Assembly: GCF_000383675.1 (NCBI RefSeq)
Contig: NZ_KB911820.1
Location: forward strand, 372,001-436,000
Direction: 5' to 3'
Source: Terracoccus sp. 273MFTsu3.1
GTDB lineage: Bacteria; Actinomycetota; Actinomycetes; Actinomycetales; Dermatophilaceae
DNA length: 64,000 nucleotides
The translations under genes were made by a program, and so were the position numbers. The stretch's first letter is position 1; each line of letters opens with the position of its first letter. Under the pieces are notes generated by a model. It searched no databases. It had not been told where the DNA came from and saw nothing but the letters and a program-made list of their open reading frames with translations. Of the stretch, positions 3,498 to 36,890 are shown piece after piece.

Positions 3498-3704
3498 CCC
3501 GCGGACTCTGGCCTCTCGACGGTGCGAGGTGGCTGAGCGGGGCGGAAGACGGGCATGGCGCGAGCCGTCCACGGCGTGGGCTCCGGCGCTACGCTGCGAC
3601 GACGGGTGCGCGGACATCTGGACCATCCCTCCACCGCGGGCCCGTCGATGCGCGATGATGCCCGGCGGGGAGGGCCATGAGGGGTGGCCGAGGGGGGCCG
3701 TGCT

Positions 3705-20930: not shown

Positions 20931-21908
20931 GTGTTTCGTCTCCCCGAGGCGTGGGTGTGGGACTTCTGGCTCGTCGACGACGGATCGGACTATCACCTGT
21001 TCTTCCTGTACGCGTCGCGTGCTCTCAAGGATCCGCACGCGCGGCACTACCGGGCGTCGATCGGGCATGCGGTGTCTTCTGACCTGGTCCACTGGGAGCG
21101 GGTGGTGGATGCGCTCGTGCGGTCGGACGCGCCGGCGTTCGACGAGCTCGCGACGTGGACCGGGTCGGTCGTGCGGCACCCGGACGGGCGGTGGTTCATG
21201 TTCTACACCGGGGCCCGCCTCAACGAGCACGGCGCCAACGTGCAGTCCATCGGGTATGCCGTGTCGTCCGACCTCTACACGTGGGACAAGGCGCCCGGGC
21301 CGGTGCTCGAGGCGGACGGTCGCTGGTACGAGAAGTGGGCGCCGCCACCCGAGGGGAACTGGCACGACGAGGCGTTCCGTGACCCGTGGGTGGTGGCTGA
21401 TCCGGACGGGGACGGGTGGCACATGCTGATCACGGCTCGTTCTGCTGTCGGGCCTGCTCACGATCCCTCGGATCGGGTGGACCGGGGGATCGTGGGGCAC
21501 GCGTGGTCGGCGGACCTGGAGAACTGGGAGCTGCGGGAGCCGCTGTCTGAGCCTGGTGCTGGGTTCGGGCAGCTCGAGGTGTTCCAGACGCATGTGGTGG
21601 AAGGGAAGCAGGTGCTGCTCTTCAACTGCGCGGTGGGGGACATGCCCGAGGCGGCTCGGGCAGCCGGCATCACGGGTGGGGTGTGGATCGCGCCTGCCGA
21701 GTCGGTGCTGGGGCCGTATGACCTGGCCGGCGCTCAGGAGATCGACGACCCGTCGCTTTACGTCGGCAAGTTCATCGACGACCGCGAGACCGGCGAGACC
21801 AAGTTCCTCGCCTTCCGCAACGAGACCGGAGGCCAGTTCATCGGCGAAGTCACCGACCCGTGCACCGTCACATGGCGAGCCGGCCGAATGTCCTTCGCCA
21901 CGGGCTAG
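20931..21908 (+). CDS. GH32/GH68-like beta-propeller glycoside hydrolase
   Basis: 325 residues, cytoplasmic (no signal). The five-bladed fructosidase-type propeller is suggested by the acidic motif W-V-W-D-F-W at residues 8-13 (nucleophile candidate Asp11), an F-R-D-P-W motif near residue 148 (transition-state Asp) and an acidic L-E-V-F-Q motif near 207 (acid/base candidate). It is the last gene of the LacI-controlled transport operon, so it probably hydrolyses the imported sugar, perhaps a fructoside such as sucrose or a fructan fragment. GH43-like activity cannot be excluded. AAAGG precedes the GTG start. Confidence 0.8.
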   Translation: MFRLPEAWVWDFWLVDDGSDYHLFFLYASRALKDPHARHYRASIGHAVSSDLVHWERVVDALVRSDAPAFDELATWTGSVVRHPDGRWFMFYTGARLNEHGANVQSIGYAVSSDLYTWDKAPGPVLEADGRWYEKWAPPPEGNWHDEAFRDPWVVADPDGDGWHMLITARSAVGPAHDPSDRVDRGIVGHAWSADLENWELREPLSEPGAGFGQLEVFQTHVVEGKQVLLFNCAVGDMPEAARAAGITGGVWIAPAESVLGPYDLAGAQEIDDPSLYVGKFIDDRETGETKFLAFRNETGGQFIGEVTDPCTVTWRAGRMSFATG

Positions 21909-21950
21909 CCGGGAAGTGCCTGTAGGTCAGAGTTTGGCTACCGCGCGTCG

Positions 21951-23435
21951 TCACTTCACGGAGACCCCTAGAAGGCCGGCGACGACCTCCGCCAACTTTA
22001 GTGCGAGATAAGGAGGCACGGCGTTCCCCACCTGGTGGTACTGCTGGGTTCTATTACCGCAGAAGAAGTAGTCGTCGGGGAATGTCTGCAGGCGGGCGGC
22101 CTCCCGCACTGTCAAGCTCCGCATCTGGCCGGGGTCTGGGTGGATGTAATAGTGGCCGTCCTTGGAGATGTGCGACGTGACTGTCGTGCTTGGGTTCTTC
22201 CACGCCTGCACCCGGAATCTGTCGGTGAAAGGAGCGTCTAGATTGCGCGCGTTGGCGTGGTTCGGGACGAGAGCCTCTGGAAGCTGGCCTAGCTTCACTG
22301 TCGTGCCCGTAGCCGCCTTTGCGGCGAGGTATGCGTACCTCATGAGATCACTGACCATGTGTCCCCGAGCCTCGTGCTGGACGATCGCTCCGATTCCCGC
22401 CTTTGTCAGCCATCTTTCGAGTTCACCGTCAGCATGCGCTGGGGCAGGCCCGCCGAGGGCCCACCCGGTTTCGGCGAGGCGGGGCCGGTGTCCCTTGGCT
22501 ACGCCGGCCGTCCGAAGACCGGCTTCCCGAACCTCTCGCCACACGTTGAGGTCATCTTGGCGCGAGGGGCTGATGCGCGACCGTATGCGTGGCAGGTGCC
22601 CGATGGCCTGCTCGACGGTAGATGCAGTCGAGGGGTGAAGGATCTTGGAACGGGCCGCTGCGATGTCACTGCGTACCCCGAGCAGGATCACTCGGTGACG
22701 CCGTTGGGGCACGCCGTAGTCCTCGGCCCGGATGACGTAGTCGCCCGGCGTCAGGCCCGAAAACAGTGCGGAGCTGTCGTCGCTGACAACGAAGGAGCGG
22801 ATCTCGTATCCGTCGCCTGCGCTTGCGAGGTCGTCCAAGATCATCGTGAAGAGGCGTTGTCCACGGTGCGTGTGCGAGAGCAGCCCTTTGACGTTCTCCA
22901 TGACGAAGACCGGGGGGCGATGTGTCGTGATTATGTCCAGGTACTCCCTGAAGAGGAAATGCTTGACGTCGTCCTCGAAGTCCGGGTCGTGGGTGCGCCG
23001 TGCGCGTCCAACCAGTGAGTACGCCTGGCAAGGGGGTCCACCGATCAGGACCCACGGGCCTTCCTCGGCTGACCTGGTCCGAAGCGCTTCCCTGATGTGT
23101 GATGAGGCCTGTGTACGGTTTGTTGGTCCGAGCTCGAGCTCAAGCACCTCTTTGTGAGCGTGGTTGAGCGCCACCTGAGCGTCGCGTTCGGACGCGAAGT
23201 CCTCCCACGAACTATTCCCGCGCAGGAACGACTTGTATCGCGCCAGCGCTCGCTCAGAGTCGCGCAATCCCCGCACCGCCGCGCGCAACCGGAGTGTCCT
23301 GCACGCTACGGGGTCCATCTCGATGGATGCAGCTGTGGAGAACACGGCCTCGTCATCGCGACCGAGCAAGCTGCAGAAGCCCTCGTTCAGTCCGCCGGGT
23401 CCAGCGAAAAGGTCGATGACAGGAACAGGTTCCAC
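21951..23435 (-). CDS. DNA (cytosine-5) methyltransferase
   Basis: 494 residues with all main C5-methylase motifs. Motif I (SAM) is D-L-F-A-G-P-G-G at residues 8-15. Motif IV has the catalytic Cys136 in GGPPCQ; motif VI is MENV; motif VIII is P-Q-R-R-H-R-V-I-L-L-G; motif X is Q-V-G-N-A-V-P-P. An insert of about 60 residues separates motifs I and IV. The start is GTG with GGAGG 5 nt upstream. It is the last gene of the defence series and presumably protects host DNA from the module's nucleases. The methylated site is unknown. A 303-bp gap separates it from the AIPR gene, so it may have its own promoter. Confidence 0.95.
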   Translation of the reverse strand: MEPVPVIDLFAGPGGLNEGFCSLLGRDDEAVFSTAASIEMDPVACRTLRLRAAVRGLRDSERALARYKSFLRGNSSWEDFASERDAQVALNHAHKEVLELELGPTNRTQASSHIREALRTRSAEEGPWVLIGGPPCQAYSLVGRARRTHDPDFEDDVKHFLFREYLDIITTHRPPVFVMENVKGLLSHTHRGQRLFTMILDDLASAGDGYEIRSFVVSDDSSALFSGLTPGDYVIRAEDYGVPQRRHRVILLGVRSDIAAARSKILHPSTASTVEQAIGHLPRIRSRISPSRQDDLNVWREVREAGLRTAGVAKGHRPRLAETGWALGGPAPAHADGELERWLTKAGIGAIVQHEARGHMVSDLMRYAYLAAKAATGTTVKLGQLPEALVPNHANARNLDAPFTDRFRVQAWKNPSTTVTSHISKDGHYYIHPDPGQMRSLTVREAARLQTFPDDYFFCGNRTQQYHQVGNAVPPYLALKLAEVVAGLLGVSVK

Positions 23436-23738
23436 TAGACCTCCAGAGTCAGAAGAAGGCTCGCCGGCTGGTTTCGAGCTGATGCCAGGTTACCAGGCTG
23501 GCCAGAGCGATGCTGGCGCCCGTCACATGGCGCCCCAACTCCGCCGCGAGATCGTCCTGCTCCAGCCAGCGGTGGTTCGGGCGGCGGTGCCTCTATCGTG
23601 CCGCTCTGGCGATTGCGACGGGCCCGATGGCCGTAGGCCTGCAGCGGCACAAACCGCGGATGCAACTATTAGCCCCACGGCAGAAAGCTGCCTGCGTGGG
23701 CAGCCGCCCGGGAACCTCGGACCAGCGGACGTGACGCC
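23436..23738. other. 303-bp gap between AIPR and methyltransferase genes
   Basis: The only sizeable gap between genes 3' of the GHKL ATPase in the defence series. It contains the GGAGG ribosome site of the methylase and probably a promoter that lets the methylase be made separately. A 76-codon minus-strand reading frame (23435-23665) crosses it, but its composition (Pro/Arg/Gly-rich, no motif) does not look like a real protein. Confidence 0.5.
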
Positions 23739-25787
23739 TCAGCGAAATCCGCTATCCATTGCGCGCTGATGAATGCCCAAAAGGCGTGCTGCTTGGCGCT
23801 CGCTCGGCACTTTCGGTCGTGCTCCAGTCATCAACCCAACAATATCGTTGTCGGCCGGCGACAAGAGCCGGTTCTCGCGACAAAAAGCGTGAACTTGCTT
23901 CCATTCGTCCACGCTGATCTCGAAGATCCTAGACAGTGCCGCAATGTTGGTATCAATCCTCTGTGTAGCCCGAGCGTCCTTGTGGACTTCAGCAGCGACG
24001 CTGGCCAAAACCAGTTCGCCTGCGAGGCTGGAGGGAAGTTCATATTGAACCTTCTTGACCAGTTCCCAGCACTGCTCCCGCTTGGCCCACTCGGTCACGT
24101 TCTGGATCGGACGCTGCTCTGCGGTTAGCACGCGGAAGCAGAGATGAGCGATGTCTAGGCATGCCTCGAGTAGAGCGGCAGAGGGGTCCTGACGGTTCCA
24201 GATCGCGAGAAAATCTAGGCGAGCACCCCGCGCTTGGGTTGCGATGGCATGTGCCAACTTGGCCATTGTGTAGGCAACAATGTTTGCCAAGTAGCCAGAC
24301 TGGTACCACTCGCTCTTCGCCACCCGCGCTCGAATAGCCTGGAACAAGATGGCTTTCGCGACCAGCTCTTTAAAATATGCCTCGTTGAACTGTGTGTCGT
24401 TGCTGGCCCATCGATCCGCAACCGAGTTTGCGAACGCAAGGAAGTTCTTCTGGGCTCCGGCGCTCACCTTGTGGGGTTCTTGGCCCCATGAAACCGAGTA
24501 TTTGGCGGCATCTGTCTTGGTAATGAGCTGAGCTCTGGGATACACCGCTTCGAACTTTTTGGCCTCAGCAGGGGAAAGCTTTGCCCTTTCGTTCTGGTAC
24601 TGACCGCGGGTTCGCTCGTAGAACCACTTCGTCTGGAAATGGGTTCCGGCCATGCTGGGCACCAGAACCTGTCGTGACAGGGTCTCCATCCGGACATGGA
24701 ACGGGCTGTTCGAGAAGAAGTCGGCTTCACTAATCCGATTCTGACTGTTCGCGTAGCGCGAGACGTTTGGAACCAAGTCGACAGCATTCTCAGGCTCGAC
24801 CACGACGAGCTTCATCTGAACATGGACCTTGGAGAGATCGGGCTTCGGAGAGCTGTCCCGACGCACGTAGAACAATGACGCCGTCGTTTGACCGCCGTTG
24901 ACAATCTGAAGGTCGCGCACGCGGAGGATGGATCCATCTGGCCCAGTCTCGACATCGGTTGCGGTGGCAGTCACGCCGTTGTTGTAAGCTAGGAATAGAT
25001 GTGGATCGCTGAGGATTGTCGTGCGGATGCCCCTATTGATGTTTCCCCGTCCACTCAGGAATGATCGCACATTGCTTTCCAGCAGCCGGCTTCCGTACCG
25101 GCCATACAAGTCAGCAAGAAGGTTGCCAGGAACGGCCGCCAAGTAGGTCTCAAACTCCCCCTCCCCGCGCACGGTCAAAGCCGGAACGCCGCGTGCGCTC
25201 CACTCGGTGAGGTCAAGGTCGAGTTGAGCGCGTCCTTGGGACGAAGTGGCTAAAGCCTCCAACCGTTGCAGGTCCCAAATGTGGAAGTCTACCGGGACGT
25301 CGCCCACGCTGGTCGAGGGCAAACTGGCTACCCGTGACCCAAGGGTGAGGTCGGTGAAGAGGTAGAGGCGAAAGCGCGTGATGGCTCGACCTCTGCTGTG
25401 TATGTCGCGTGCAAGCTGGACTGCAGCCTCAGATGGCTCTCGGTCTAAGGGAAACGTGCCGGCGACGGCATCGCGCAAGTAGGCCTCGAGCAGGCCGAAG
25501 AGGCGTTGGACTTCGGTGTTGCCCATGGTCCCCTCAACGCCAGAACCATCGAAATGCGAGATGGCAAGGGCGACCGAGTCGTCCGTGTCGCCGAGGTCGT
25601 GACCGTCGACTCCACTGTTGCGACGGCCACTCTGACCTCTGAAATGGATCGGGATGAGGTTTTCGATTTCTTCAGCAGCGGCCATTCGCTCGGCCATCTC
25701 GGTCATGAATGCGGAAGCAGTCAGATCATTGTCAACATCGGCCCGCACCTCGACTGTGTTCAGTAGCTCCAAAAGAAACTCATTCAC
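23739..25787 (-). CDS. AIPR (abortive infection phage resistance) family protein
   Basis: 682 residues. AIPR landmarks are visible: L-A-Y-N-N-G-V-T-A-T-A near residue 255, I-V-N-G-G-Q-T-T-A-S-L near 285 and R-Y-A-N-S-Q-N-R-I-S-E-A-D-F-F near 330. These are followed by W-F-Y-E-R-T-R-G-Q-Y. The family was named from plasmid-borne phage abortive infection and is frequent in restriction islands; its biochemical role is not settled. GTG start overlapping the upstream DUF4420 gene by 8 bp. Codon usage is less GC-biased than that of the flanking chromosome. Confidence 0.9.
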   Translation of the reverse strand: MNEFLLELLNTVEVRADVDNDLTASAFMTEMAERMAAAEEIENLIPIHFRGQSGRRNSGVDGHDLGDTDDSVALAISHFDGSGVEGTMGNTEVQRLFGLLEAYLRDAVAGTFPLDREPSEAAVQLARDIHSRGRAITRFRLYLFTDLTLGSRVASLPSTSVGDVPVDFHIWDLQRLEALATSSQGRAQLDLDLTEWSARGVPALTVRGEGEFETYLAAVPGNLLADLYGRYGSRLLESNVRSFLSGRGNINRGIRTTILSDPHLFLAYNNGVTATATDVETGPDGSILRVRDLQIVNGGQTTASLFYVRRDSSPKPDLSKVHVQMKLVVVEPENAVDLVPNVSRYANSQNRISEADFFSNSPFHVRMETLSRQVLVPSMAGTHFQTKWFYERTRGQYQNERAKLSPAEAKKFEAVYPRAQLITKTDAAKYSVSWGQEPHKVSAGAQKNFLAFANSVADRWASNDTQFNEAYFKELVAKAILFQAIRARVAKSEWYQSGYLANIVAYTMAKLAHAIATQARGARLDFLAIWNRQDPSAALLEACLDIAHLCFRVLTAEQRPIQNVTEWAKREQCWELVKKVQYELPSSLAGELVLASVAAEVHKDARATQRIDTNIAALSRIFEISVDEWKQVHAFCRENRLLSPADNDIVGLMTGARPKVPSERQAARLLGIHQRAMDSGFR

Positions 25788-26742
25788 GATTCATTCCCCC
25801 GTCCACCATCCAGGCTTCCAATCCTCGAACGTCCAATTGATACCGCACAGAGCTGACTGGGCTCGGCATGTCGTGGGACCGGAGGCTCGGAAAGTGCGAG
25901 TTCACACGAAACACGGTCGCGTTCTGCAACGTGAAACACATCTCCGAATAGTAGTGATCAGACAGGTCCACCCCGAGTCGAGAGACCAAGAGATCGAACA
26001 GGTGGCGTTCGGCCGGGTTGACGCCGAGGGCCGCCCTCCATGACTGCACAAGATCGACAAGCGAGCGAGCGCCCGGGGAGTCGATCGAGCGTTCGTCAAG
26101 ATCGAACACGACTAAATGCAATGTCTTGTCCGCAGGATCAAGCTGCTCCACGGACGACACCTTGACCGTGGTCGCCTTGGACCGTTTGGCCTTGACTTCC
26201 CAAACGTGCCCGGAGGGGAAAGTGAAATCCTGAACGCCGCCAAGGGGGCCTGACCATGAGCGCACGATTTCGGCACGAGATCGACCTTGGCTTACGACTG
26301 TCTCGCCCGCCCACAACTCCGCCACGAGACCTCGGAGCCTCTCGAGTGTCAGGCGCTTGGGAGGATGCGGCCGAAAGAGCACCTGCCATTGCGCAAGGGC
26401 AAGCAGAAACTGGTCGATGGGCGCCAGGCCTGCTCTGGGCACGGCTGACCGCTCGGCCAGATCTACGCCCAGTCGCACGAAAGTAGGGAACAGCGATTGG
26501 TCGACGAGTGTCCAAGTAGTGGCCCAGCGTCCGTCCTCGCGCCGGGAGGATGAGGTGGTGACGTCACGACTCAGATCCTCCAGTTCCGGATCTTGGGCGG
26601 TGATGAGCACCATCACTGCGCGCCCCTTCTCGTCTGCACCGAAGAGCAGGTTCAGCGGGTGGCTCGGATCGAAATACTTCTTCGCCGGCGACCTGTCTGA
26701 ACAGAGTCGCGCCCACTGGACCTCGACGTCGTCAGTCTGCAT
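25780..26742 (-). CDS. DUF4420-type PD-(D/E)XK nuclease-like protein
   Basis: 320 residues from the ATG at 26742. The nuclease core is suggested by a Glu in G-L-V-A-E-L (E142), then D172 in V-Q-D-F, and E182/K184 in W-E-V-K. This spacing fits PD-(D/E)XK enzymes and the DUF4420 family usually found next to Z1 and AIPR genes. It is the best candidate for the DNA-cleaving subunit of this module. It overlaps the Z1 gene by 11 bp and the AIPR gene by 8 bp, implying coupled translation and fixed stoichiometry. Family name from recall; no search was run. Confidence 0.85.
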   Translation of the reverse strand: MQTDDVEVQWARLCSDRSPAKKYFDPSHPLNLLFGADEKGRAVMVLITAQDPELEDLSRDVTTSSSRREDGRWATTWTLVDQSLFPTFVRLGVDLAERSAVPRAGLAPIDQFLLALAQWQVLFRPHPPKRLTLERLRGLVAELWAGETVVSQGRSRAEIVRSWSGPLGGVQDFTFPSGHVWEVKAKRSKATTVKVSSVEQLDPADKTLHLVVFDLDERSIDSPGARSLVDLVQSWRAALGVNPAERHLFDLLVSRLGVDLSDHYYSEMCFTLQNATVFRVNSHFPSLRSHDMPSPVSSVRYQLDVRGLEAWMVDGGMNRE

Positions 26743-29458
26743 CCGTGCCCCATTCCAACTGCGCAAGCCACCCCTGCTGCGCAACGGTATTGATGATGTA
26801 ATCGGCGTCGGTGGACGTGTCCTTTACGTCCACGTGGCGGCCAGGTATCGCGATCTTTGTTGCTACGACTAAGTGCTCACTGACGTGATTAAGCCCCAAA
26901 GGCGCCTCGTTGTCCTTCCACTTCGGTCTTAGCGGATAGAGCATGAGGACTGGCCGTGGCAGACAGTGGTAGAACGCGGTCTCCGGAACACCCTTGGGAC
27001 GCTTCCCCTCCGGCCACTTCTTTGAGTTCCAAAATGCGGCCGTTGCTCGTTCCTTGGCCTCCTTCGATATGAAGTTGAGGGATGCCACATCCGAGGAGCC
27101 CGCCAGCCTGGCCGAGCCGCCCGACACTCGGAGGACATTGCCGTCCGACGCCGTCAACATGCGCTCGGGCGGATAGATCGGAAGTCCAAGTCGCGTATCG
27201 CGATCGCCGGTCTTCCTGCCGTTGGCAAGTACGACATCCCATTTCTGCATACTGGGTGATTTCGCATTGCGCACGAATGTCTGGAGGTTATTTCCCGTCC
27301 AGATGAGCTCGGCTTGATCCGTCACCAATGCGTCCAAATAGTCGGCAATTGTCGACTTCGCCACTCCGCGCCAAGCCGGCCAGTCCATGCGATTCGCCGG
27401 TTCGGTTGGTGCGCCCATAGCGGTCAACAGCATCCTCAAAGCTGATTCGTTCTGAGCGAGACTTACATCTTCACTACTGAGTCGAACGGTCTCGATTCTG
27501 CGGCCGCCAAGAGAGACTGATTTCTTGAAAGTTGTCGCTGCCTTCATCTTGTTTCGCGCAGTTACTAACAAGCTCTCAGGGTGCTTCTTGACGGCGAGCC
27601 CGAAGTCCGCTGGAGTCAGACGCTGTGCCTTCATCTCTGCGAGATCGTCTCGGAGCTCTCGAACGGCTTCGTCGACGAACCGGAACTGGTCGGCCACATC
27701 GGCTGTGATCCACAGTCTAGTTAAGTCCTGGAATCCGTCACGGTAACCGAACCATCGCGCCATCTGCATTAACGTGTCGAATGCGCCTGCTTGTCGGTAG
27801 AAGTAGCTAGTACTCAGGCCATCCAACGTCAGCCCTCGGCTTAACACGTCGCCGCCCACGGCGATCATGCGTGGCGGCTTGTCCCATGCCAGCTCTTGGT
27901 CGACTAAGGCCTTGTCGCGGTCGGAGTTCACCAAGGTCACGCGTATGTCGGCCACAGAGGCCCACAGCGAGTCGAGTATCTGGGTCCAAGTGAACTCCAC
28001 ATCCGAGTAGACCTGATCGTAGGTCTCTTCGAGGGACTCGAGGTGCGAATTGGGTTGCCCGTCGGCGTAGGCGGCGGCATGGAACTCCGCAGCGTTGCGT
28101 AGCTCGACGGCGTATTGCTCGACTAGTTCATGAACCTGACGCTGGATGTTCTTGAAGCGTGACACGTTCACTAGCATCGAGCGCCCGCCACCATGGCCGC
28201 GGAGATCCCTGACCGCCGTGGCGATCAGGAACGTTCTGACCGCCAATTTCAGGCTCGGTGGAAGCCCGGGCACGGAGTCGTTCGACTTGTGCCGGCTGGG
28301 CACGTACGCCTCGGCATCCGTCACATCCATCAGCCCGCCGTCGAAAACGTCATCGCTGGTGCCGAACGTCGCGGTGGCGCCCACGTAGTTGGTGGGTGTC
28401 TCGAGACTGTAGACGTAATCGCGGGGGAACAGGTCGTTTTGGTGATCGTGATCGATGAATATGTTTGCGAAGGGCGTCGCGGTGAAAGCGATATATGAGC
28501 TGCGTGTGAACTTCCCGAGGATGCCCCGGATCGCCGCGTTGATTGCCGTGGGCGACTCCTCGGCGCCTGTGTTCACGGACGCGTAGTCGGACTCATCGTC
28601 AAGGAGAAGAAGCGGCAAGTCGATCCGGCCCGTGGTGCCCGCCTGTTGGCCCAGCCACTCTTGAACGGCGTTTAGTACGCTCTTGTTCTTCTTAAGGACG
28701 AAGACATACGGAGATGGCGTGTTTTCCGAGACGGTGATGCTGGATGCCATCAGGCTGGACTTGCGGAAATCCTGCATCACCGTGGTCATGCTTTGAGCGT
28801 CGGCAATCGTCTCGTTCAATAGACCGATGCCAACGAACTTCTTACTTGCTTGCTGGCTATTTTGACCGCCCTTCTGTGCTATTAGTCTGGTGTCGCGCCC
28901 GATGAATGCCTCATCCAAACGTTCCTGAGTCTGCTGCCTGAGGCTCTCTGTGCTTCCGGCAAGTACGATGATCAGTCGGTACCCCGCATCAGCAGCCTTG
29001 TTGAATAGCCCGAGATACGTCCCGGTCTTGCCTGACTGGACATCACCGATGACCAAACCACGGCGGCCCCATGTGCCTCCCGCTTTTGGATCGCCTACGA
29101 GGTCGAGGATCTCGTCGGTGAGGTGTCCCAGCTTGTCCACGACCTTCGGAGGCCGACCGTTCTGCAGGAGCCATTGCTTGTACGCCTTCCAGCGTGACCA
29201 TTCGATTTCGCTCCGCATTCCCGGAAGCCAAGAGACGAAGTCCTCCGATGTCACGGCGGTGCCCAGATCGACGTCGATCTGCAGCCGTTGGATGAGCTCA
29301 CGCGTCATCGAATCGATCTCGTCGGCAGACGCGGCAGGAGCCAGGACCGGTTGTAGGCCGGCGACCATGTCACGAAGCTCCTGCTCTGTGTGCAGACCTG
29401 TGCTCAACGCTCCGCTGACCGCGAGCTTGAGCTGTTCCATTGCCACGCTCTCAGCCAC
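26732..29458 (-). CDS. Z1-domain superfamily 2-like ATPase
   Basis: 908 residues. Walker A is G-D-V-Q-S-G-K-T at 138-145 and Walker B is D-D-E-S-D at 288-292. A helicase motif III-like T-A-T-P lies at 327-330, and a C-terminal helicase lobe shows V-G-G-D-V-L-S-R-G-L-T-L followed by Q-M-A-R-W-F-G-Y-R. This is the Z1 signature set. Comparative genomics (Iyer, Abhiman and Aravind on MORC-like ATPases) linked Z1 proteins to GHKL ATPases, methylases and nucleases in restriction operons. It probably moves on or remodels DNA to license cleavage. GTG start overlapping the GHKL gene by 8 bp. Confidence 0.92.
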   Translation of the reverse strand: MAESVAMEQLKLAVSGALSTGLHTEQELRDMVAGLQPVLAPAASADEIDSMTRELIQRLQIDVDLGTAVTSEDFVSWLPGMRSEIEWSRWKAYKQWLLQNGRPPKVVDKLGHLTDEILDLVGDPKAGGTWGRRGLVIGDVQSGKTGTYLGLFNKAADAGYRLIIVLAGSTESLRQQTQERLDEAFIGRDTRLIAQKGGQNSQQASKKFVGIGLLNETIADAQSMTTVMQDFRKSSLMASSITVSENTPSPYVFVLKKNKSVLNAVQEWLGQQAGTTGRIDLPLLLLDDESDYASVNTGAEESPTAINAAIRGILGKFTRSSYIAFTATPFANIFIDHDHQNDLFPRDYVYSLETPTNYVGATATFGTSDDVFDGGLMDVTDAEAYVPSRHKSNDSVPGLPPSLKLAVRTFLIATAVRDLRGHGGGRSMLVNVSRFKNIQRQVHELVEQYAVELRNAAEFHAAAYADGQPNSHLESLEETYDQVYSDVEFTWTQILDSLWASVADIRVTLVNSDRDKALVDQELAWDKPPRMIAVGGDVLSRGLTLDGLSTSYFYRQAGAFDTLMQMARWFGYRDGFQDLTRLWITADVADQFRFVDEAVRELRDDLAEMKAQRLTPADFGLAVKKHPESLLVTARNKMKAATTFKKSVSLGGRRIETVRLSSEDVSLAQNESALRMLLTAMGAPTEPANRMDWPAWRGVAKSTIADYLDALVTDQAELIWTGNNLQTFVRNAKSPSMQKWDVVLANGRKTGDRDTRLGLPIYPPERMLTASDGNVLRVSGGSARLAGSSDVASLNFISKEAKERATAAFWNSKKWPEGKRPKGVPETAFYHCLPRPVLMLYPLRPKWKDNEAPLGLNHVSEHLVVATKIAIPGRHVDVKDTSTDADYIINTVAQQGWLAQLEWGTDAD

Positions 29459-30911
29459 GTACGGCCTCCTTGAGGATGTCAGCGCCCCGGGGGTGACCGC
29501 TGAATGGTTCGACGTTGATCATGGCTGCGACGAAAGCGTCGCCGGTGGCGGATGGACCGGCAGCGGTCGAATACTTAGTCCACATATCGCGCGCCATCTC
29601 TGCGATGGCGGATTCTCCCAAACCGTTCTCCATCACCTGATCCTTTGCCAGACGATTGAAGATATCGTCGCCAGGCATCGTCGCTTCGATCAGGGTCAGT
29701 AGCCGTCCCAGCTCGGCCTCTCCCTGTCCCCCAGACGCGACGACGGCGGCGTCCACGGCAGGATGGCTCCTGTTGAGTGAGTACGAGAATCCGTTCTCAT
29801 GTGTGACGAGCTGCCAGACATGCTGAGTCGCGCTCTTCTCCTTGCGACCCTGCCAGTTGAGGGTGTTCTTGCTGGGCGTGGTCACACGTTCAGCGAACTT
29901 CTTCAATCGGCGACGCACCTCGGGGGGCGGCTGTGCGGTGGCCTTCTTGATGTCTAGTGCCCAAAGGTGGTCAAGCGAGTTGGGCACATCGACCTGAACT
30001 CTCGAGAGCTTGGCCATGTCCTGTCTCGGAAGGATTCGGAACCACGTTCCCCAAATGACGAGGCGACGGGCCCGATAGATGTAGAAGCCTTGGCTGTCAC
30101 GAAGTTGTCCAGCCACTTGCAAACTGGCGCGGTCCGCTGAGGAAAGGGTGGTCAGCCGAGGCACGGTGAAGGGCTGGACCGTGACCGTGGAACCCTCCAC
30201 CTTGAATGACTCGGACGGTAGGCGCTGTGTCCGGCGATGTGTGGAGAGGAAGGGGTCGATGGCGGGGATGGCGCGGCTGTTCAGCCTGATGACCAGCGCC
30301 CGTTTGGAGTCCCCGATGAACCGGTGGAAGATGAGGCCGAGATGATCCCTCACGCCCAGCATCGCGGAGTCCATATCGGCCGCCGTTTCGCCTGCGTGCG
30401 CTCGCAACTGGTCGAGCTCTCGCCAGAGAACGAGCGTGCCAGATTCGAGGGCCAGGAGTCGCTCCACCCCCGGAAGTGATTCCACCTCGACGGCGTCGAG
30501 GCGCAGTAGGGACCAGGTGCCTTCGCGCAAAAGGTGATCTAGGTTCCACGAGTAGGCGACCACGCCTTCACTCGTCTTGCTCACCAAGGTCATGTCGCGG
30601 CATTGCGAGAGTGAAGCCGTTTTTAGCCCTAGGCCAAAGCGGCCCAAGTCATGGGCAGGTCGCTGTTCGGTCGAGCTTCGGGCAGCGAGTCGCATCGCCT
30701 CTCGTGCCGCTTGACGTGACATGCCCGAGCCGTCGTCTAGTACTGCAACGAAGTCGTCAGGCTCGCTCGCGAACGAGATGTCGATTTGCGAGGCGCCGGC
30801 AGTGATCGAGTTATCCACGAGATCGGCGATCGCGGCTTCCAACGTGTAACCAACCGCTCTCATGGACTCCATAAGGTGCGGTTCGGGAGGGATCTGTTCC
30901 TCGGTTGCCAT
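29451..30911 (-). CDS. MORC/Hsp90-type GHKL ATPase
   Basis: 486 residues. The Bergerat ATP fold is clear. The N box is E-A-A-I-A-D-L-V-D-N-S (catalytic Glu and Asn34), the G1 box D-D-G-S-G-M at 59-64 and the G2 box G-R-F-G-L-G-L-K-T-A-S at 90-100. A transducer (S5-like) region follows, including K-L-S-R-V-Q-V-D-V-P near 290. The N-box form IADLVDNS is that of MORC and related bacterial restriction-associated ATPases, not classical MutL or histidine kinases. ATP-driven dimer closure around DNA is the family model; here it would cooperate with Z1. First of four overlapping genes. Confidence 0.92.
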   Translation of the reverse strand: MATEEQIPPEPHLMESMRAVGYTLEAAIADLVDNSITAGASQIDISFASEPDDFVAVLDDGSGMSRQAAREAMRLAARSSTEQRPAHDLGRFGLGLKTASLSQCRDMTLVSKTSEGVVAYSWNLDHLLREGTWSLLRLDAVEVESLPGVERLLALESGTLVLWRELDQLRAHAGETAADMDSAMLGVRDHLGLIFHRFIGDSKRALVIRLNSRAIPAIDPFLSTHRRTQRLPSESFKVEGSTVTVQPFTVPRLTTLSSADRASLQVAGQLRDSQGFYIYRARRLVIWGTWFRILPRQDMAKLSRVQVDVPNSLDHLWALDIKKATAQPPPEVRRRLKKFAERVTTPSKNTLNWQGRKEKSATQHVWQLVTHENGFSYSLNRSHPAVDAAVVASGGQGEAELGRLLTLIEATMPGDDIFNRLAKDQVMENGLGESAIAEMARDMWTKYSTAAGPSATGDAFVAAMINVEPFSGHPRGADILKEAVRG

Positions 30912-31060
30912 TGCCTCGTTGCTTCAGCTTCCTGTTTTCCGCCCCCTGATCTGGGCGCAGAGAAGGACGGGCGCCCCGATAGACCCTCGGAGCCCTGGGG
31001 AGCCCAACCATGCCATGAACCAGACATCTAGTGGTCGATCCTGTGAGGCGGTGTGTCCGC

Positions 31061-31522
31061 CTACTCTTGGCTTAGCCTCCGCTCGACTATGTCAGCCATC
31101 ATCCTAGGCGCGAGGTGCTCCCAAACGCGTACGGGCTCCCACCCCGCGGCTCGAAGGGCACTGTCGGTGTCCTGATCTCGGATTCGGTTCGCCTCGATCT
31201 TCGCCAGCCACCAGTCTCGATTCCTGATCGGTGGAACGAAATGGTCAGGGCAGCCATGCCAAAAGCAGCCGTCGACGAAGACGGCCACGCGGGGTCTGGT
31301 AAAGGCGATGTCGACCCGCCGCCTTGGCAGCCCAGGCACGGGGTACTGAACACGGAACCGTCGACCTCGACGGTGCAGCTCGCTCCGTAGGGCAGTCTCG
31401 GGTCGTGTCCCCTCTCGGCGCTGCCGACGGAAGCGTTCACGGACTGCAGCGTCAATGGGAGGTTGCGGCGTCGGAGGAGCCGCTGGGGTGTCGGTGCTTG
31501 CAGGAATCGGACGTGCGTCCAT
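31061..31522 (-). CDS. Very short patch repair (Vsr) endonuclease
   Basis: 153 residues. Vsr features: R-R-E-G-T-R-P-E-T-A-L-R near residue 40, V-D-I-A-F with the catalytic Asp71, then F-V-D-G-C-F-W-H-G-C (82-91) and W-W-L-A-K-I-E-A-N-R-I-R-D. Vsr nicks beside T in T:G mismatches produced by deamination of 5-methylcytosine, and so accompanies C5 methylases. Here the methylase gene lies six genes away at the other end of the same series. The N-terminal 25 residues are a Pro/Ala tail not typical of the family, so translation may start later. The gap to the GHKL gene is 149 bp. Confidence 0.93.
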   Translation of the reverse strand: MDARPIPASTDTPAAPPTPQPPIDAAVRERFRRQRREGTRPETALRSELHRRGRRFRVQYPVPGLPRRRVDIAFTRPRVAVFVDGCFWHGCPDHFVPPIRNRDWWLAKIEANRIRDQDTDSALRAAGWEPVRVWEHLAPRMMADIVERRLSQE

Positions 31523-31680
31523 GCGCTAAGCCTGGCAGCCGCGCCTGCCGACGCAGGTTTTCGCGTGTCACCATCTTCGAATGCTGCGAAGCGCCCGTAA
31601 CCAAGGACCGCCTTGCTGCAGCCTACGATGCAGGGTCGTGAATGCTGGCGTTGATCGTTGCCGATGCACAGCGGAATCGA

Positions 31681-31962
31681 CTATTGCAGTCTCCAGCCCC
31701 CAGATCGCTTGCCCGCTTTCGACGCCAAGACTCCGTCGTTCCGGAGATTCTGGGCCGCCCATCGGAGGTCGTATTGCCAAGTGAAAAATAGGTCTCCAGA
31801 AGCGCGCAACTCCGGCTCGTGGTGCTCCCAAACGTGTCGAGCCACCTCGACCACCGACATCTCGCGACCTTGCTCGCGAAGTGCTTGCACGATCCAACTC
31901 TCCAAGTCTCTTTTCTCAGCCACGGGGGCAGCTTGGCAGCTTGAGTCGGATGGGGGGTTCAT
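31681..31962 (-). CDS. Small winged-helix protein, Mrr-N-like
   Basis: 93 residues from the ATG at 31962. The pattern is W-I-V-Q-A-L-R-E-Q-G, S-V-V-E-V-A-R-H-V-W-E-H-H, then F-F-T-W-Q-Y-D-L-R-W-A-A-Q-N-L-R-N-D-G-V-L and a closing G-G-W-R-L. It resembles the N-terminal DNA-binding winged helix of Mrr-type restriction proteins and stand-alone regulators related to it. It sits directly upstream of vsr on the same strand and could be the controller of the defence genes. The reading frame is open further upstream into a truncated receiver domain, so a longer chimeric product is possible. Confidence 0.65.
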   Translation of the reverse strand: MNPPSDSSCQAAPVAEKRDLESWIVQALREQGREMSVVEVARHVWEHHEPELRASGDLFFTWQYDLRWAAQNLRNDGVLASKAGKRSGGWRLQ

Positions 31963-32253
31963 TTGAGCGTGTCGCGAACTTTCATGTGGCGAAGGTGAGG
32001 TGATCACGCTTCCGAGTCCGCCAGTGACGTTGCGGATGCCGCCGCAAATCTCCTCGGCCGATGTGGTCTGAGCAGGGAAGTCGTCAACGCCGGCTCGCAC
32101 CACCCGCCGGGCCACGTCGTGGTGGTCGAAGGCGGTGAACATCAGGACATGCGGCGCCTCAAGGCGCGCTTTCACTGCCCCGATCGTCTCGGTGCCGCCG
32201 ACCCGCGCCATGCCGACGTAGAGCACGATGAGGTCGCAGGTGCCGCAGGCCAA
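31963..32253 (-). pseudogene. Truncated response-regulator receiver domain
   Basis: In frame with the winged-helix gene downstream, the translated segment resembles the second half of a NarL-type receiver. C-D-L-I-V-L-Y-V-G-M-A stands where a receiver has V-L-L-D-V-R-M-P, and L-M-F-T-A-F-D, V-R-A-G-V-D-D-F and E-E-I-C-G-G-I-R follow. The phospho-acceptor Asp is replaced by Tyr, the first half is missing and the LuxR-type DNA-binding domain is gone. It is therefore a remnant, cut at both ends, most likely by arrival of the defence island on one side and a deletion on the other. Confidence 0.65.
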
Positions 32254-32270
32254 CGCGCACCATCGGGTTC

Positions 32271-32690
32271 GTCGCCCGATCTCCCGACAAGCAGAGCGAT
32301 GCTCGGACGACCGCGAAGGTTAGCCAGAAGGTCTGCGACGGCCAGATCGAGCTCACCGGCACCAAGGTGCAGAAGGGCGTCAAGTCCGTCGGTGACCAGT
32401 ACCTCAACGAGAAGGCGCAGGGCCAGTTCGTCCTCGTCAGCAATATCGGCGACGAGGCACAACTCCTCTCCGACTCGTCTCAGAAGGTGCGCGACGCCAA
32501 GGTCCGCGAGTTCCCCGCCGGCACTGGGGTGCGATCTACATCAAGGACAACAAGGTCTTCCTCTAGGAGATCAACCCCGGGAGCGCCGTCAAGAAGACCT
32601 CATCTTCGAAATGCCGAGGGCACCGAGCAGGCCGGCATCGAGCTGCACGACTCGCGCTTCTCCGACGGCGTCAACGTCCAGCTCGGCTGA
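32271..32690 (+). pseudogene. Decayed DUF4352-domain (secreted telokin-like) gene
   Basis: Three frames together spell a DUF4352-like domain. Frame one, to about 32525, gives K-V-Q-K-G-V-K-S-V-G-D and A-Q-G-Q-F-V-L-V-S-N-I-G-D-E-A-Q. A shift then gives I-Y-I-K-D-N-K-V-F-L, an in-frame TAG, and E-I-N-P-G-S-A-V-K-K. Further shifts give L-I-F-E-M-P and finally I-E-L-H-D-S-R-F-S-D-G-V ending at TGA 32690. The signal peptide and N-terminus are missing. At least two frameshifts and one nonsense codon make it non-functional. It abuts the receiver remnant head to head. Confidence 0.8.
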
Positions 32691-32806
32691 GACGGCGTAT
32701 GCCGCGGGGTTGGCGTCGCGTGGGGGGTCGGCTCCCACTACGAAGGGCAATTTCTTCAAACCGGCACGGGCATGATCTGCGACGTCCAAGATGAGCCTTT
32801 GCCTCA

Positions 32807-33412
32807 ATGAGAAAGCGATCACTCGACGTGAACAGCCAAGACCTGCCCACGCCCAATGCGCCGACCAAGCCGACGATCCAGCTGCCGCCGCCCCTGGGGC
32901 AGCCGCCCCAGTCTTGGCCCCCCTCCGCTCCCCAGCCCCTGCCCCAGAAGCGTAGCAAGAAGCACCTGATCGGCTACCCGGTCACCGCCCTGCTGGCGCT
33001 CGGCATCGGGGCGGCGGGCGGTGGCAACGCCGACGCAACGCCGCCGGCCACAGCCTCGTCGACCGTGGTGGTCACGCAGACCGTCCCCGTGCCATCGATT
33101 GCGACTGCCACGCAGACACTTCGCGCGACCGTGACGGTGGCCGCCTCAAGGGCGCCTGTCGCGGTGGCCGCGCCGAAGCCCGCGAGCAAGGTCACCGTCC
33201 CAGATGGCGTGGGCATGAACTATCAGGATGCGCAGGACGCCTGGCGAGCCGCTGGCCTCCATGTCGCTCCGGCCGAGGACGCGACGGGCGCCCACCGGAT
33301 CCCGGTCCTCGACGCAAACTGGGTCGTCCTGGCCCAGAACCTCCAGGCCGGCAGCAAGGTCGCCGTCGATTCTTTCATCATCGCGACGATCAAGAAGTAC
33401 AGCGACAACTGA
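32807..33412 (+). CDS. Membrane-anchored protein with PASTA-like C-terminal domain
   Basis: 201 residues. A Pro-rich cytoplasmic N-terminus is followed by a single membrane span near residues 50-66, a Thr/Val/Ala-rich extracellular linker and a C-terminal PASTA-like module from about residue 135 (V-P-D-G-V-G-M-N-Y-Q-D-A-Q-D-A, then V-L-A-Q-N-L-Q-A-G). PASTA modules bind peptidoglycan fragments in kinases and are also found in stand-alone actinobacterial proteins next to DUF4352 genes. That fits the decayed DUF4352 gene just upstream. The start is uncertain; a GTG at 32828 is an alternative. Confidence 0.7.
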   Translation: MRKRSLDVNSQDLPTPNAPTKPTIQLPPPLGQPPQSWPPSAPQPLPQKRSKKHLIGYPVTALLALGIGAAGGGNADATPPATASSTVVVTQTVPVPSIATATQTLRATVTVAASRAPVAVAAPKPASKVTVPDGVGMNYQDAQDAWRAAGLHVAPAEDATGAHRIPVLDANWVVLAQNLQAGSKVAVDSFIIATIKKYSDN

Positions 33413-33514
33413 CGGAGATTGGCCTCCACGATGATGTCGTCGGGGCCACGTTTCGTGTTCTCCCATGCGAAGGTGCTCTAGCTCGGATCTGATCGACAGA
33501 GAAGAGGGTGCGGT

Positions 33515-33727
33515 ATGCCGCAGTACAAGGTCGTCGAGCTCCGCGAGGGGATGCTTGGCGGGAAGATGTCTGGGGACAAGCTTGAGAAGGTGCTCAACGA
33601 GTACGGCTCCAAGGGGTGGTCGCTGAAGGCGATCACGTCTGTCGACGTCAAGGGTCGTATCGGGCCCGGCGGCGTCAGCGGCGTCTTGGTGACTTTCGAA
33701 AAGGCTGAGCCGCCGACACATCCGTGA
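33515..33727 (+). CDS. DUF4177-like small protein
   Basis: 70 residues with the DUF4177 pattern: Y-K-V-V-E-L at the start, K-L-E-K-V-L-N-E-Y-G-S-K-G-W-S-L in the middle and V-L-V-T-F-E-K at the end. These small cytoplasmic proteins have no known function. A strong ribosome site (GAGAAGAGGG) precedes the ATG. The stop codon lies inside a perfect 42-bp palindrome. Confidence 0.85.
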   Translation: MPQYKVVELREGMLGGKMSGDKLEKVLNEYGSKGWSLKAITSVDVKGRIGPGGVSGVLVTFEKAEPPTHP

Positions 33728-33765
33728 AGGTGCGACGCTCAGAATTCTGAGCGTCGCACCTTCAC
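33724..33765. terminator. Perfect 42-bp palindrome, likely bidirectional terminator
   Basis: Two 21-base arms meet without a spacer at a central GAATTC; the left arm begins GTGAAGGTGCGACG. It includes the stop codon of the DUF4177 gene and lies between it and the convergent gene ending at 33821. No T run. The arms are longer than needed for termination. Confidence 0.75.
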
Positions 33766-33820
33766 AGTTCCCAAGTCGCCGCAGCCGGCGCCGCGCTGGC
33801 GTCTCGTCGGCGCTAGCGCG

Positions 33821-34375
33821 TCAGTCGCAGTTTGGGCAGGGGCCGGAGACGGGCATCTCCATGAAGCACGTCGGGCAGACCGCGCCGCGCCGAGCCTCCG
33901 TGGCGGCCGTCGCCCGCGGCGTACTCGCCCGGACGACCCGCGCCTTCGCGGTCAACGTCGGCACCGCGTCGGCTGGCACGTCAGCCCCCCAGTGGCGGTA
34001 GCACTCGAGCCGCGCGGCGGCCGCGCTGTTCTCGCGCTCGAGCGGGTCCGCGATCGGGGCCTCGCCAGCAACACGCAGCGCCTCGTCGTAGCCGGCTCCG
34101 ACCTGCCCATCGTCCTTGCGGACGACCAGGGACGCGAGCGGCGGCTCGTTGCGCACGTGGTTGACCTTGACCAGGTCGGCGAGCAGGGCGCCGATCCAGT
34201 TGCGCATCTGCGCCTTGGTCCGCAGCGACGAGCGGCGCTGGACCTCCTCGGCGAGCTCGGAGTAGGTGATGACGGCGTTGTAGCGACCCGCGGTCTCCAC
34301 GAGCACCTCGTAGGCGTGCTTCGCCCAGTAGGGCTGGGCGAACTTCGGAGTCACGAACGTCTCGTGGTCAGACAT
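33821..34375 (-). CDS. Unknown protein with C-terminal zinc ribbon
   Basis: 184 residues from the ATG at 34375. The first 110 residues look like a winged-helix unit (A-Y-E-V-L-V-E-T-A-G-R-Y, then I-T-Y-S-E-L-A-E-E-V and M-R-N-W-I-G-A-L-L-A-D-L). The C-terminus is a compact zinc ribbon, C-P-T-C...C-P-N-C. The N-terminal part recalls small nucleic-acid-binding modules, but I cannot name a family. Longer starts to 34426 exist. No export signal. Confidence 0.7.
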   Translation of the reverse strand: MSDHETFVTPKFAQPYWAKHAYEVLVETAGRYNAVITYSELAEEVQRRSSLRTKAQMRNWIGALLADLVKVNHVRNEPPLASLVVRKDDGQVGAGYDEALRVAGEAPIADPLERENSAAAARLECYRHWGADVPADAVPTLTAKARVVRASTPRATAATEARRGAVCPTCFMEMPVSGPCPNCD

Positions 34376-34499
34376 GGTGAGCCATTCGATTCCTTCATGG
34401 TGCGTCGACGAAGTACCAGTCTCCACCCAACGCGACCCGGACCCCTACCCGGTCCTGCGCGACAGCCGCCCGGGCGCCGCCGACGGCCGGCGGAAAGGG

Positions 34500-36428
34500 T
34501 CACATCTCCGGGTCCGTCGTGGACTCCGCCGCGATCACGTGCATGACCGCGTTGATGAGGGCCAGGTGGGTGAACGCCTGCGGGAAGTTCCCCAGGTGGC
34601 GCCCCGTGTGCGTGTCGATCTCCTCGGCATACAGCTCCAGAGGCCCGGCAAACGAGAGCAGCTTGGCGCACAGCTCGTGCGCCCGCTTGTGCTCGCCGAT
34701 CTCCGACAGTGCCGACACGAGCCAGAACGAGCAGATCGTGAAGGTCCCCTCCTCGCCGGAGAAGCCGTCGTCCGTCTCGTCGACGCGATACCGCAGCACG
34801 AGCCCGTCGACCGTCAGCTCGTCCGCGATCGCCAGCACCGTCGCCCGGATCACCGGGTGGTCCGGCGGCAGGAAGCGCACGAGCGGCGCCAGCAGCAGCG
34901 AGGCGTCCAGGGCTGACGACCCGTAGTACTGCGTCAGCACCCCACGCTCGTCGACCCCGTGCTCGAGGATGTCGGCCATGATCTCCTCGGCGGCCAGCTC
35001 CCACTCCGCGGCCTGCGAGTCCTCCCCGATCATCGACGCGAGCTTCGCGCCGCGGTCGACCGCGACCCAGCACATGATCTTGGACGACGTGAAGTGCTTG
35101 AGCTCGCCGCGCACCTCCCAGATGCCGGCGTCGGGCTCGCGCCAGTGCTTGAGCGCCGTCCGCACCTGCTTGCCGAGGATCGGCCAGATGCGCCCGTCGA
35201 GGTGGTCGGCCACCTTCGAGTGGAGATAGACCGAGTCGAGCAGCGCGCCCCAGACGTCGTGCTGCACCTGCGAGTGCGCGGCGTTGCCGATGCGCACGGG
35301 CCGCGAGCCGGCATACCCCGGCAGGTGGTCGAGCTCGAACTCCGGCAGCTCTCGCTCCCCGCCGATGCCGTACATGATCTGCAGGTCCTCGTCGCGCTCG
35401 GCCATGTCGGCGATGAACGAGAAGAAGTCCACTGCCTCCCAGTCGAACCCGAGCGAGTACATCCCCCACAGGGCGAAGGTCGCGTCACGGATCCACGTGT
35501 AGCGGTAGTCGTAGTTTCGTTCTCCACCAATGGTTTCCGGCAGTGACGTCGTCGACGCGGCGGCGATCGCACCGGTCGGCGCATACGTCAGGCCCTTGAG
35601 CGTCAGCGCACTCCGCTGGAGGTAGCTGCGCCACGGGTGGTCGGGGAAGCGGCCGCGGGCGAGCCAGTGCTGCCAGTGGTGCGCCGTCCACACGAGCCGC
35701 TGGTACGCCTGGCCGAAGTCGGTCGGCGGCGGCTTGTCGCCCCACGAGAGCGCGATGTAGCGGACGTCGCCCTCCCTGAGCAGCGTTCTCGCAGCGGCCT
35801 GCCCGCCCTCGAAGCCGAGTCGCAGGTCCGTCGTGAGCGTCAGCACGACGTCCGACCCGTCCGCGACGGCGCGGCCCTGGTGGTAGCCGAGGTCGGTGTA
35901 GTCCCACCTCACCGGTCTGCGCCCGTAGTCGAGCACCGGCTCGCACTCCATCACCATCTGCACCTCGCCCGAGACGCAGCGGATCGTCCGCAGCAGCGTG
36001 TGCTCGGCGTCGTAGTCCATCGGCGTGCGCCGGTGCTTCGGCGACACCTCGTCGTCGTGACGCCACGGCCCGATGAGGAGCACGTCGCGGACGATGATCC
36101 AGCCCGTCGGCGTGCCCCAGCTCGTCTCGAGCACCATCGTGCCCGGCAGGTAGCGCCGCGCCGTCGGCACGCCGACGTCCGACGGCCCGAGCCGGAAGCG
36201 CCCCGAGTGCCGCCCGAGCATCGCCCCGAAGACACTCGGCGAGTCCAGGCGTGGCAGGCACATCCAGTCGACGTCGCCGCCCGGCGCCAGGAGCGCCGTC
36301 ACCTCACCGTCGGACAGGAACCCGTAGTCCGCGATCGGGACCGCCTTGACGCGCCCCGTCGGGCCCGCCGAGCCCGGCGCGCTCGTCGAGGCGTGCGAGG
36401 TCGCGACGTCGTCGGCAGATGCGTCCAT
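34500..36428 (-). CDS. Glycoside hydrolase family 15 protein (glucoamylase/trehalase-like)
   Basis: 642 residues. The beta-sandwich N-terminal domain begins I-A-D-Y-G-F-L-S-D-G-E, and the (alpha/alpha)6 barrel follows. The barrel shows N-Y-D-Y-R-Y-T-W-I-R-D-A near residue 305, a G-E-R-E-L-P-E motif near 360, and a late E-E-I-D-T-H-T-G near 605 carrying the second catalytic Glu. Bacterial GH15 proteins of this form are glucoamylases or acid trehalases acting in the cytoplasm. The start is weakly supported: no clear ribosome site at the ATG, and the N-terminal 28 residues are low complexity. Confidence 0.9.
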   Translation of the reverse strand: MDASADDVATSHASTSAPGSAGPTGRVKAVPIADYGFLSDGEVTALLAPGGDVDWMCLPRLDSPSVFGAMLGRHSGRFRLGPSDVGVPTARRYLPGTMVLETSWGTPTGWIIVRDVLLIGPWRHDDEVSPKHRRTPMDYDAEHTLLRTIRCVSGEVQMVMECEPVLDYGRRPVRWDYTDLGYHQGRAVADGSDVVLTLTTDLRLGFEGGQAAARTLLREGDVRYIALSWGDKPPPTDFGQAYQRLVWTAHHWQHWLARGRFPDHPWRSYLQRSALTLKGLTYAPTGAIAAASTTSLPETIGGERNYDYRYTWIRDATFALWGMYSLGFDWEAVDFFSFIADMAERDEDLQIMYGIGGERELPEFELDHLPGYAGSRPVRIGNAAHSQVQHDVWGALLDSVYLHSKVADHLDGRIWPILGKQVRTALKHWREPDAGIWEVRGELKHFTSSKIMCWVAVDRGAKLASMIGEDSQAAEWELAAEEIMADILEHGVDERGVLTQYYGSSALDASLLLAPLVRFLPPDHPVIRATVLAIADELTVDGLVLRYRVDETDDGFSGEEGTFTICSFWLVSALSEIGEHKRAHELCAKLLSFAGPLELYAEEIDTHTGRHLGNFPQAFTHLALINAVMHVIAAESTTDPEM

Positions 36429-36890
36429 GAATTCAGAGTGCTCGCGGTCCTCGCTCCGCACAAGGGACGCCTCGCCACGAGGGCGGCGAGCCGCCGGGCG
36501 CACCGAGGGCGTATGCCGTCCGCTCCCGCAAGAGCCCGACAAGAGTCCCGCAAGGTCATTCGAATTCGGACATCCAGGCAACCGGGCGGGTCTCCACTGG
36601 AGGGAGTCGTCCACCGACGACGCAGACTTCGACGGTTGGCCCGTTGTGGTACGTGAACCGTCACGGGGCCCGAGCTCGCATCGCGAGGCGGGCCCCATCG
36701 TCATCCGGACAGCCAGCCCCGCTGAGTCCCCTGATGACCCAATGCACAGTCCCGCCGAGGCAGCGGCCCCGTCTCCAACGGCGGCATCCCGGGCGCGCCC
36801 TGCGACAGTGCTCCGCCCGGTGGGGCAGTGACGCAGGCGCCCATCCGCCAACCGGCCAACGAGCCAACAAGCGAATCAGCCGAACAAGCG
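36429..36890. other. 462-bp intergenic region
   Basis: Upstream of the GH15 gene. It holds one GTATGCC motif (36510) and the first copy of the two-hairpin repeat element (36624-36696, annotated separately). The remainder, 36697-36890, shows no convincing reading frame or structure. Confidence 0.6.
36624..36696 (+). ncRNA. Repeated two-hairpin element, copy 1 (putative small RNA)
   Basis: A 41-nt block (36624-36664), identical to 43221-43261, contains arms GACGGTT and AACCGTC around an 18-nt loop. It is followed by a strong hairpin (36665-36696) in which GGGGCCCG pairs with CGGGCCCC and an inner CTCGC pairs with GCGAG. Block plus terminator-like hairpin is the layout of a small RNA 3' end. 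The second copy keeps the block exactly but uses a different hairpin sequence with the same shape. The plus strand is inferred from the order of the hairpins. Confidence 0.5.

Follow-up and report, generated by a model that had tools for sequence, protein, structure and literature searches.

The mzaABCDE system was reportedly described by Gao in 2020. Among operons that contain MORC ATPases, the third type of Iyer, Abhiman and Aravind (2008, PMC2292703) includes, in the part of that paper available to us, a MORC protein that is proposed to loop DNA. CglI and NgoAVII are described, in the available part of PMC4267653, as three genes whose nuclease combines a PLD with a B3 recognition domain. 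Here, we analyse a locus in Terracoccus sp. 273MFTsu3.1, within a stretch of 64,000 nucleotides (contig NZ_KB911820.1, positions 372,001 to 436,000; hereafter the window). The locus probably encodes an ATP-dependent restriction-modification system that is MZA-like and contains a C5 methylase (Miller type II).

Six genes on the minus strand occupy positions 21951-31522 of the window in the order Vsr-B-C-D-E-methylase. They encode a Vsr-type T:G mismatch endonuclease (153 amino acids; 31061..31522), an MzaB-like MORC-type GHKL ATPase (486 amino acids; 29451..30911), an MzaC-like protein (26732..29458), an MzaD-like DUF4420 PD-(D/E)XK protein (320 amino acids from its ATG; 25780..26742), an MzaE-like AIPR protein (682 amino acids; 23739..25787) and a C5 cytosine methylase (494 amino acids; 21951..23435). 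The B-C, C-D and D-E pairs overlap by 8, 11 and 8 bp, Vsr lies 149 bp upstream of MzaB, and the methylase lies 303 bp downstream of MzaE. The family assignments are concordant across Pfam, PADLOC and NCBIfam, and together with the coordinates they confirm the one-strand module of six genes, four of them overlapping by 8-11 bp, that an earlier note on this DNA had proposed. PADLOC matches MzaB, MzaC, MzaD and MzaE with E-values of 3.2e-73, 2.1e-118, 2.1e-15 and 5.6e-80, respectively, and these genes are present in the canonical mzaABCDE order. The NCBIfam scores of MzaB-E, at 290, 470, 80 and 342 bits, are far under the cut-offs of 850, 1500, 420 and 1050. Thus, the locus and canonical mza are only distantly related. 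The low guanine-plus-cytosine content of the operon genes (57.6-64.5%, versus 69.9% for the window) suggests acquisition.

The module recurs in other genomes. Scanning genome contigs with an MzaC alignment gave at least 596 candidate stretches, at least 581 of which encode a relative. The best 80 were kept; they span many phyla and, being the ones most similar to the window, are biased to its subtype. Exactly B-C-D-E on one strand was found in 70 of these 80 loci, and in 46 of the 52 with flanks of at least 7.5 kb (the 28 with shorter flanks were excluded from neighbourhood counts). A C5 methylase occurs within 8.5 kb in 49/52 loci and Vsr in 38/52, with no case of Vsr without a methylase. The remaining three loci comprise one with a weak, divergent C5 methylase open reading frame (ORF) (L090) and two with a methylase farther out (L117 and L124). 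The co-occurrence search that the earlier note had called for shows that the families share a neighbourhood in other genomes.

Searches seeded with other components gave further loci. MzaB matched 11 of 396 genomes of the phylum at 1e-8, the window included. Among ten regions around MzaB matches, five hold C and D (L038-L041 and L043), and five, mostly with weak MzaB matches, have no C, D or E (L042 and L044-L047). DUF4420 was present in 11 of 98 relatives, again including the window, and the other ten loci were inspected with their flanks. Nine of them (L013-L021) all have C, D and a methylase, with Vsr in seven and MzaE in none; MzaB-like genes are missing from eight, and in L016 a remote GHKL gene lies next to C. 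In the tenth (L022), only a short DUF4420 match and a methylase are present. Variants of the operon were also seen: L058 (8525-16805) and L090 (8305-15903) contain B-C-E-methylase operons without a DUF4420 nuclease gene, and L038 carries a second MORC-type ATPase gene (3179-4552) beside its B-C-D-E-methylase locus.

The motifs that the earlier note had read in the ATPase N box, the Z1 Walker A and B sites and DUF4420 (D172/E182/K184) are invariant or nearly so in family alignments. Scored on one best match per locus, E142/D172/E182/K184 of MzaD are kept in 79/79, the Walker A, Walker B and Q565/R568 residues of MzaC in 83/83, and N34 of MzaB in 80/81 (one gap). MzaB carries the sequence GFYIYRARRLV, in agreement with the MORC motif of Iyer; the motif residues G275 and R283 are kept in 81/81. 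By sequence, MzaB matches the solved structures of MutL and MORC2; the same comparison gave nothing credible for MzaC, MzaD and MzaE, for which we take single matches at E-values of 0.52 and 0.18 as chance. Asp30 of MzaB occupies what we take to be the position of the general-base Glu in MutL. It is Asp in all 80 rows that have the residue, and also in the plasmid loci L128-L130, and its conservation suggests that MzaB may hydrolyse ATP more slowly.

In the predicted structure of MzaE, residues ~1-186 form a nuclease-like fold without a conserved catalytic Lys. The model of this domain has strands at 45-53, 56-64, 71-78, 138-145 and 164-171 and matches restriction endonucleases, which lends no support to reading the AIPR N-domain as HEPN. 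The N-domain as a copy of MzaD (DUF4420) was also rejected, because no profile similarity was found (hhalign P 0.2). The core (~209-372) tentatively matches ParB-like and sulfiredoxin structures, and the C-terminal part (~424-678) is nearly all helical in the model. A profile match between AIPR and DndB (P 0.013, probability 3.5%) is weak and kept as a hint; it aligns IVNGGQTTAS of MzaE with VTDGQHRLAA of a DndB-family protein. In comparison with the DndB and ParB-CTPase fold proteins, as covered in the available part of PMC12704722, a ParB-like DNA-binding domain was not identified in MzaE.

The methylase follows a partly different history from the other genes. Pairwise protein distances among B, C, D and E correlate at 0.51-0.68 (0.57-0.70 in the 57 six-gene loci), versus 0.14-0.20 between the methylase and B-E in all rows (0.23-0.31 in the 57 loci). 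Each of these correlations, the low ones included, is higher than in any of 100 shuffles, and the methylase therefore cannot be treated as independent of B-E. Saturation is not the cause of the low values, since MzaD is more divergent than the methylase (median p-distance 0.75 versus 0.70). In the 43 loci of the commonest methylase family, C correlates with B, E and D at 0.74-0.85 (C-D 0.85), whereas the methylase correlates with B-E at 0.28-0.40 (C-methylase 0.36); in the other families (35 loci), the C-D and C-methylase values are 0.58 and 0.28. Changes were mapped on a quickly built MzaC tree with three long branches, supported by Shimodaira-Hasegawa-like approximate likelihood-ratio tests only. 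Loci with no or several methylases were excluded, leaving 70 of 83 for family and 44 for place. Across the 44 loci the methylase changed place or orientation at least 14 times, where 3 is the fewest possible and shuffling gave a mean of 22.8 and never fewer than 18. Family changes numbered 13-22 according to the cut-off, exceeding by 4-8 the minimum set by the number of families (shuffled means 24.7-35.2). Taken together, the correlations and the tree indicate that the methylase is partly inherited with the operon and repeatedly exchanged. One apparent clean swap, L067, was not relied on because its contig begins just upstream of B. The evidence that Vsr is strictly partnered with the methylase is mixed. 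Across the 57 loci Vsr correlates at 0.44 with the methylase and 0.31-0.41 with B-E, values that likewise exceed those of all 100 shuffles, and in the other methylase families (20 loci) at 0.64 with MzaC versus 0.32 with the methylase.

The locus lies in a genus-level defence hotspot (21908-34500) bounded by a GH32-like gene (20931-21908) and a gene at 34500-36851, presumably GH15-like. The hotspot is 12.6 kb long here and 27-36 kb in genomes G001, G005, G006, G007 and G008. PADLOC, run on eight hotspot proteins from three of these genomes, detected type I restriction in G008, DrmA and a C5 methylase in G005, and DpdE and DpdJ in G007. In G001, which is of the same genus, the hotspot holds at the same place a methylase 86% identical over 491 amino acids, with a similar stretch between motifs (judged by eye) where the target-recognition region is expected. 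Its Vsr is only 55% identical, a further point against strict partnership with the methylase, and is adjoined by genes matching PDC-M33A and PDC-M33C, and B-E genes were not found in the G001 hotspot stretch, which also holds PbeA-like, type IIG/ISP, HKD+Snf2 and SNF2 helicase genes. DNA identity is 82% in the flank and 83% in the methylase, so the methylase looks resident and its partner differs, although it may have been transferred separately. The other seven genomes of the genus gave no further close methylase (1e-40), and in a sample of 394 genomes of the class, with up to three candidates scored in the genomes listed, Terracoccus sp. 273MFTsu3.1 alone had a match at E 1e-80. Among the genomes searched, G001 is thus the single other one found to share the methylase.

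Upstream of Vsr, a small minus-strand ORF (31681..31962) matched no Pfam family above the cut-off and has a relative in one other locus (L014) among the 95 searched. It was considered as a candidate for the putative transcriptional regulator of the Miller type II system. Its likeness to an Mrr-N winged helix, judged by eye, received no support from Pfam and was set aside. Farther upstream, 31966-32253 retains part of a response-regulator receiver domain (profile positions 42-106 of 111, below the cut-off). Homologous DNA is found in the hotspots of G004, G007 and G008, and the remnant is perhaps an insertion scar.

From the genes, their motifs and order, their co-inheritance and the predicted folds, we infer the activities, the formation of a complex and the order of steps in the putative restriction-modification system. 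The methylase would mark the host's sites with 5-methylcytosine, and Vsr would repair the T:G mismatches that arise from its deamination. MzaC could act as a DNA motor that activates the nuclease MzaD, the two forming the restriction core, while MzaB, resembling MutL and MORC, may serve as an ATP-gated clamp to hold or loop DNA. MzaE could be a nucleotide-dependent ParB-fold switch or clamp with an inactive nuclease-like domain, licensing the complex on unmodified DNA. Incoming unmodified DNA would then be loaded, translocated and cut.

It is possible, though unlikely, that B-C-D-E instead senses a general feature of the invader (ends, replication intermediates or supercoiling), and that the methylase and Vsr are a separate neighbour or supply only a shared protective mark. 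The poor distance correlations of the methylase, overall, in six-gene loci and within its commonest family, speak for this, as do its many changes of place and orientation, the G001 methylase that accompanies PDC-M33-like genes, and the lack of a recognition domain in B-E among Pfam matches. However, so constant a methylase, weak or farther away in just three of the 52 loci, is hard to explain as an unrelated neighbour, and correlations above, and place changes below, those of the shuffles point to some co-inheritance.

We consider it rather improbable that restriction is combined with suicide, with B-C-D cutting DNA and an AIPR toxin (such as a HEPN RNase) killing the infected cell. The family name and the available part of PMC3506569, which states that AIPR proteins have an N-terminal HEPN toxin domain, favour this, and the helical C-terminal part of the MzaE model could hold a toxin domain. 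The interpretation of the earlier note is supported in part; its defence reading is supported but already published. The HEPN reading of the AIPR N-domain is not borne out by the model. The co-occurrence of Vsr with a MutL-related ATPase could also indicate a DNA-repair operon, in which the methylase, Vsr and the ATPase would act in very-short-patch repair and not in defence. This is very hard to reconcile with the patchy occurrence of DUF4420 in relatives, the low guanine-plus-cytosine content, the position in a defence hotspot, the helicase and PD-(D/E)XK protein encoded in the same operon, and the MORC motif of MzaB, which goes beyond the MutL motif alone.

Relative to canonical mza, the ATP-dependent restriction-modification system proposed here has Vsr upstream of MzaB, in the place of MzaA; no sigma-factor-like MzaA was found, as the flanking ORFs put to Pfam (part of those in the window) match no sigma family. 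The mza locus L128, on a Thalassospira plasmid with an annotated mzaE, has a 750-amino-acid sigma-factor-like gene upstream of MzaB. It shares the B-C-D-E order (identities of 34, 35, 25 and 33%) and likewise has a C5 methylase. An extra gene annotated as a restriction endonuclease (13645-14814) lies between mzaE and this methylase. For the PLD nuclease with a B3 recognition domain of CglI and NgoAVII, Pfam gave no match among the six proteins here. Among ten proteins scanned for DISARM, DrmA, DrmB and DrmC were not matched, and the methylase alone matches a Drm model (DrmMII, 3e-95). The MORC-type ATPase association of the type II putative defence system of Miller 2022 (PMC9523054) is found here, and we see no essential difference from the text description in the available part of that paper, with Vsr present in our locus; nor do we see one from the third MORC operon type as given in the available part of PMC2292703. 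The locus belongs to a known but poorly understood kind of putative defence cluster, for which comparison with relatives suggests a division of work that includes a possible nucleotide-driven switch. The novelty lies in the comparisons, which point to an exchangeable methylase, an Asp in the general-base position, a putative ParB-like core in the AIPR protein, and nuclease-less and two-motor variants.
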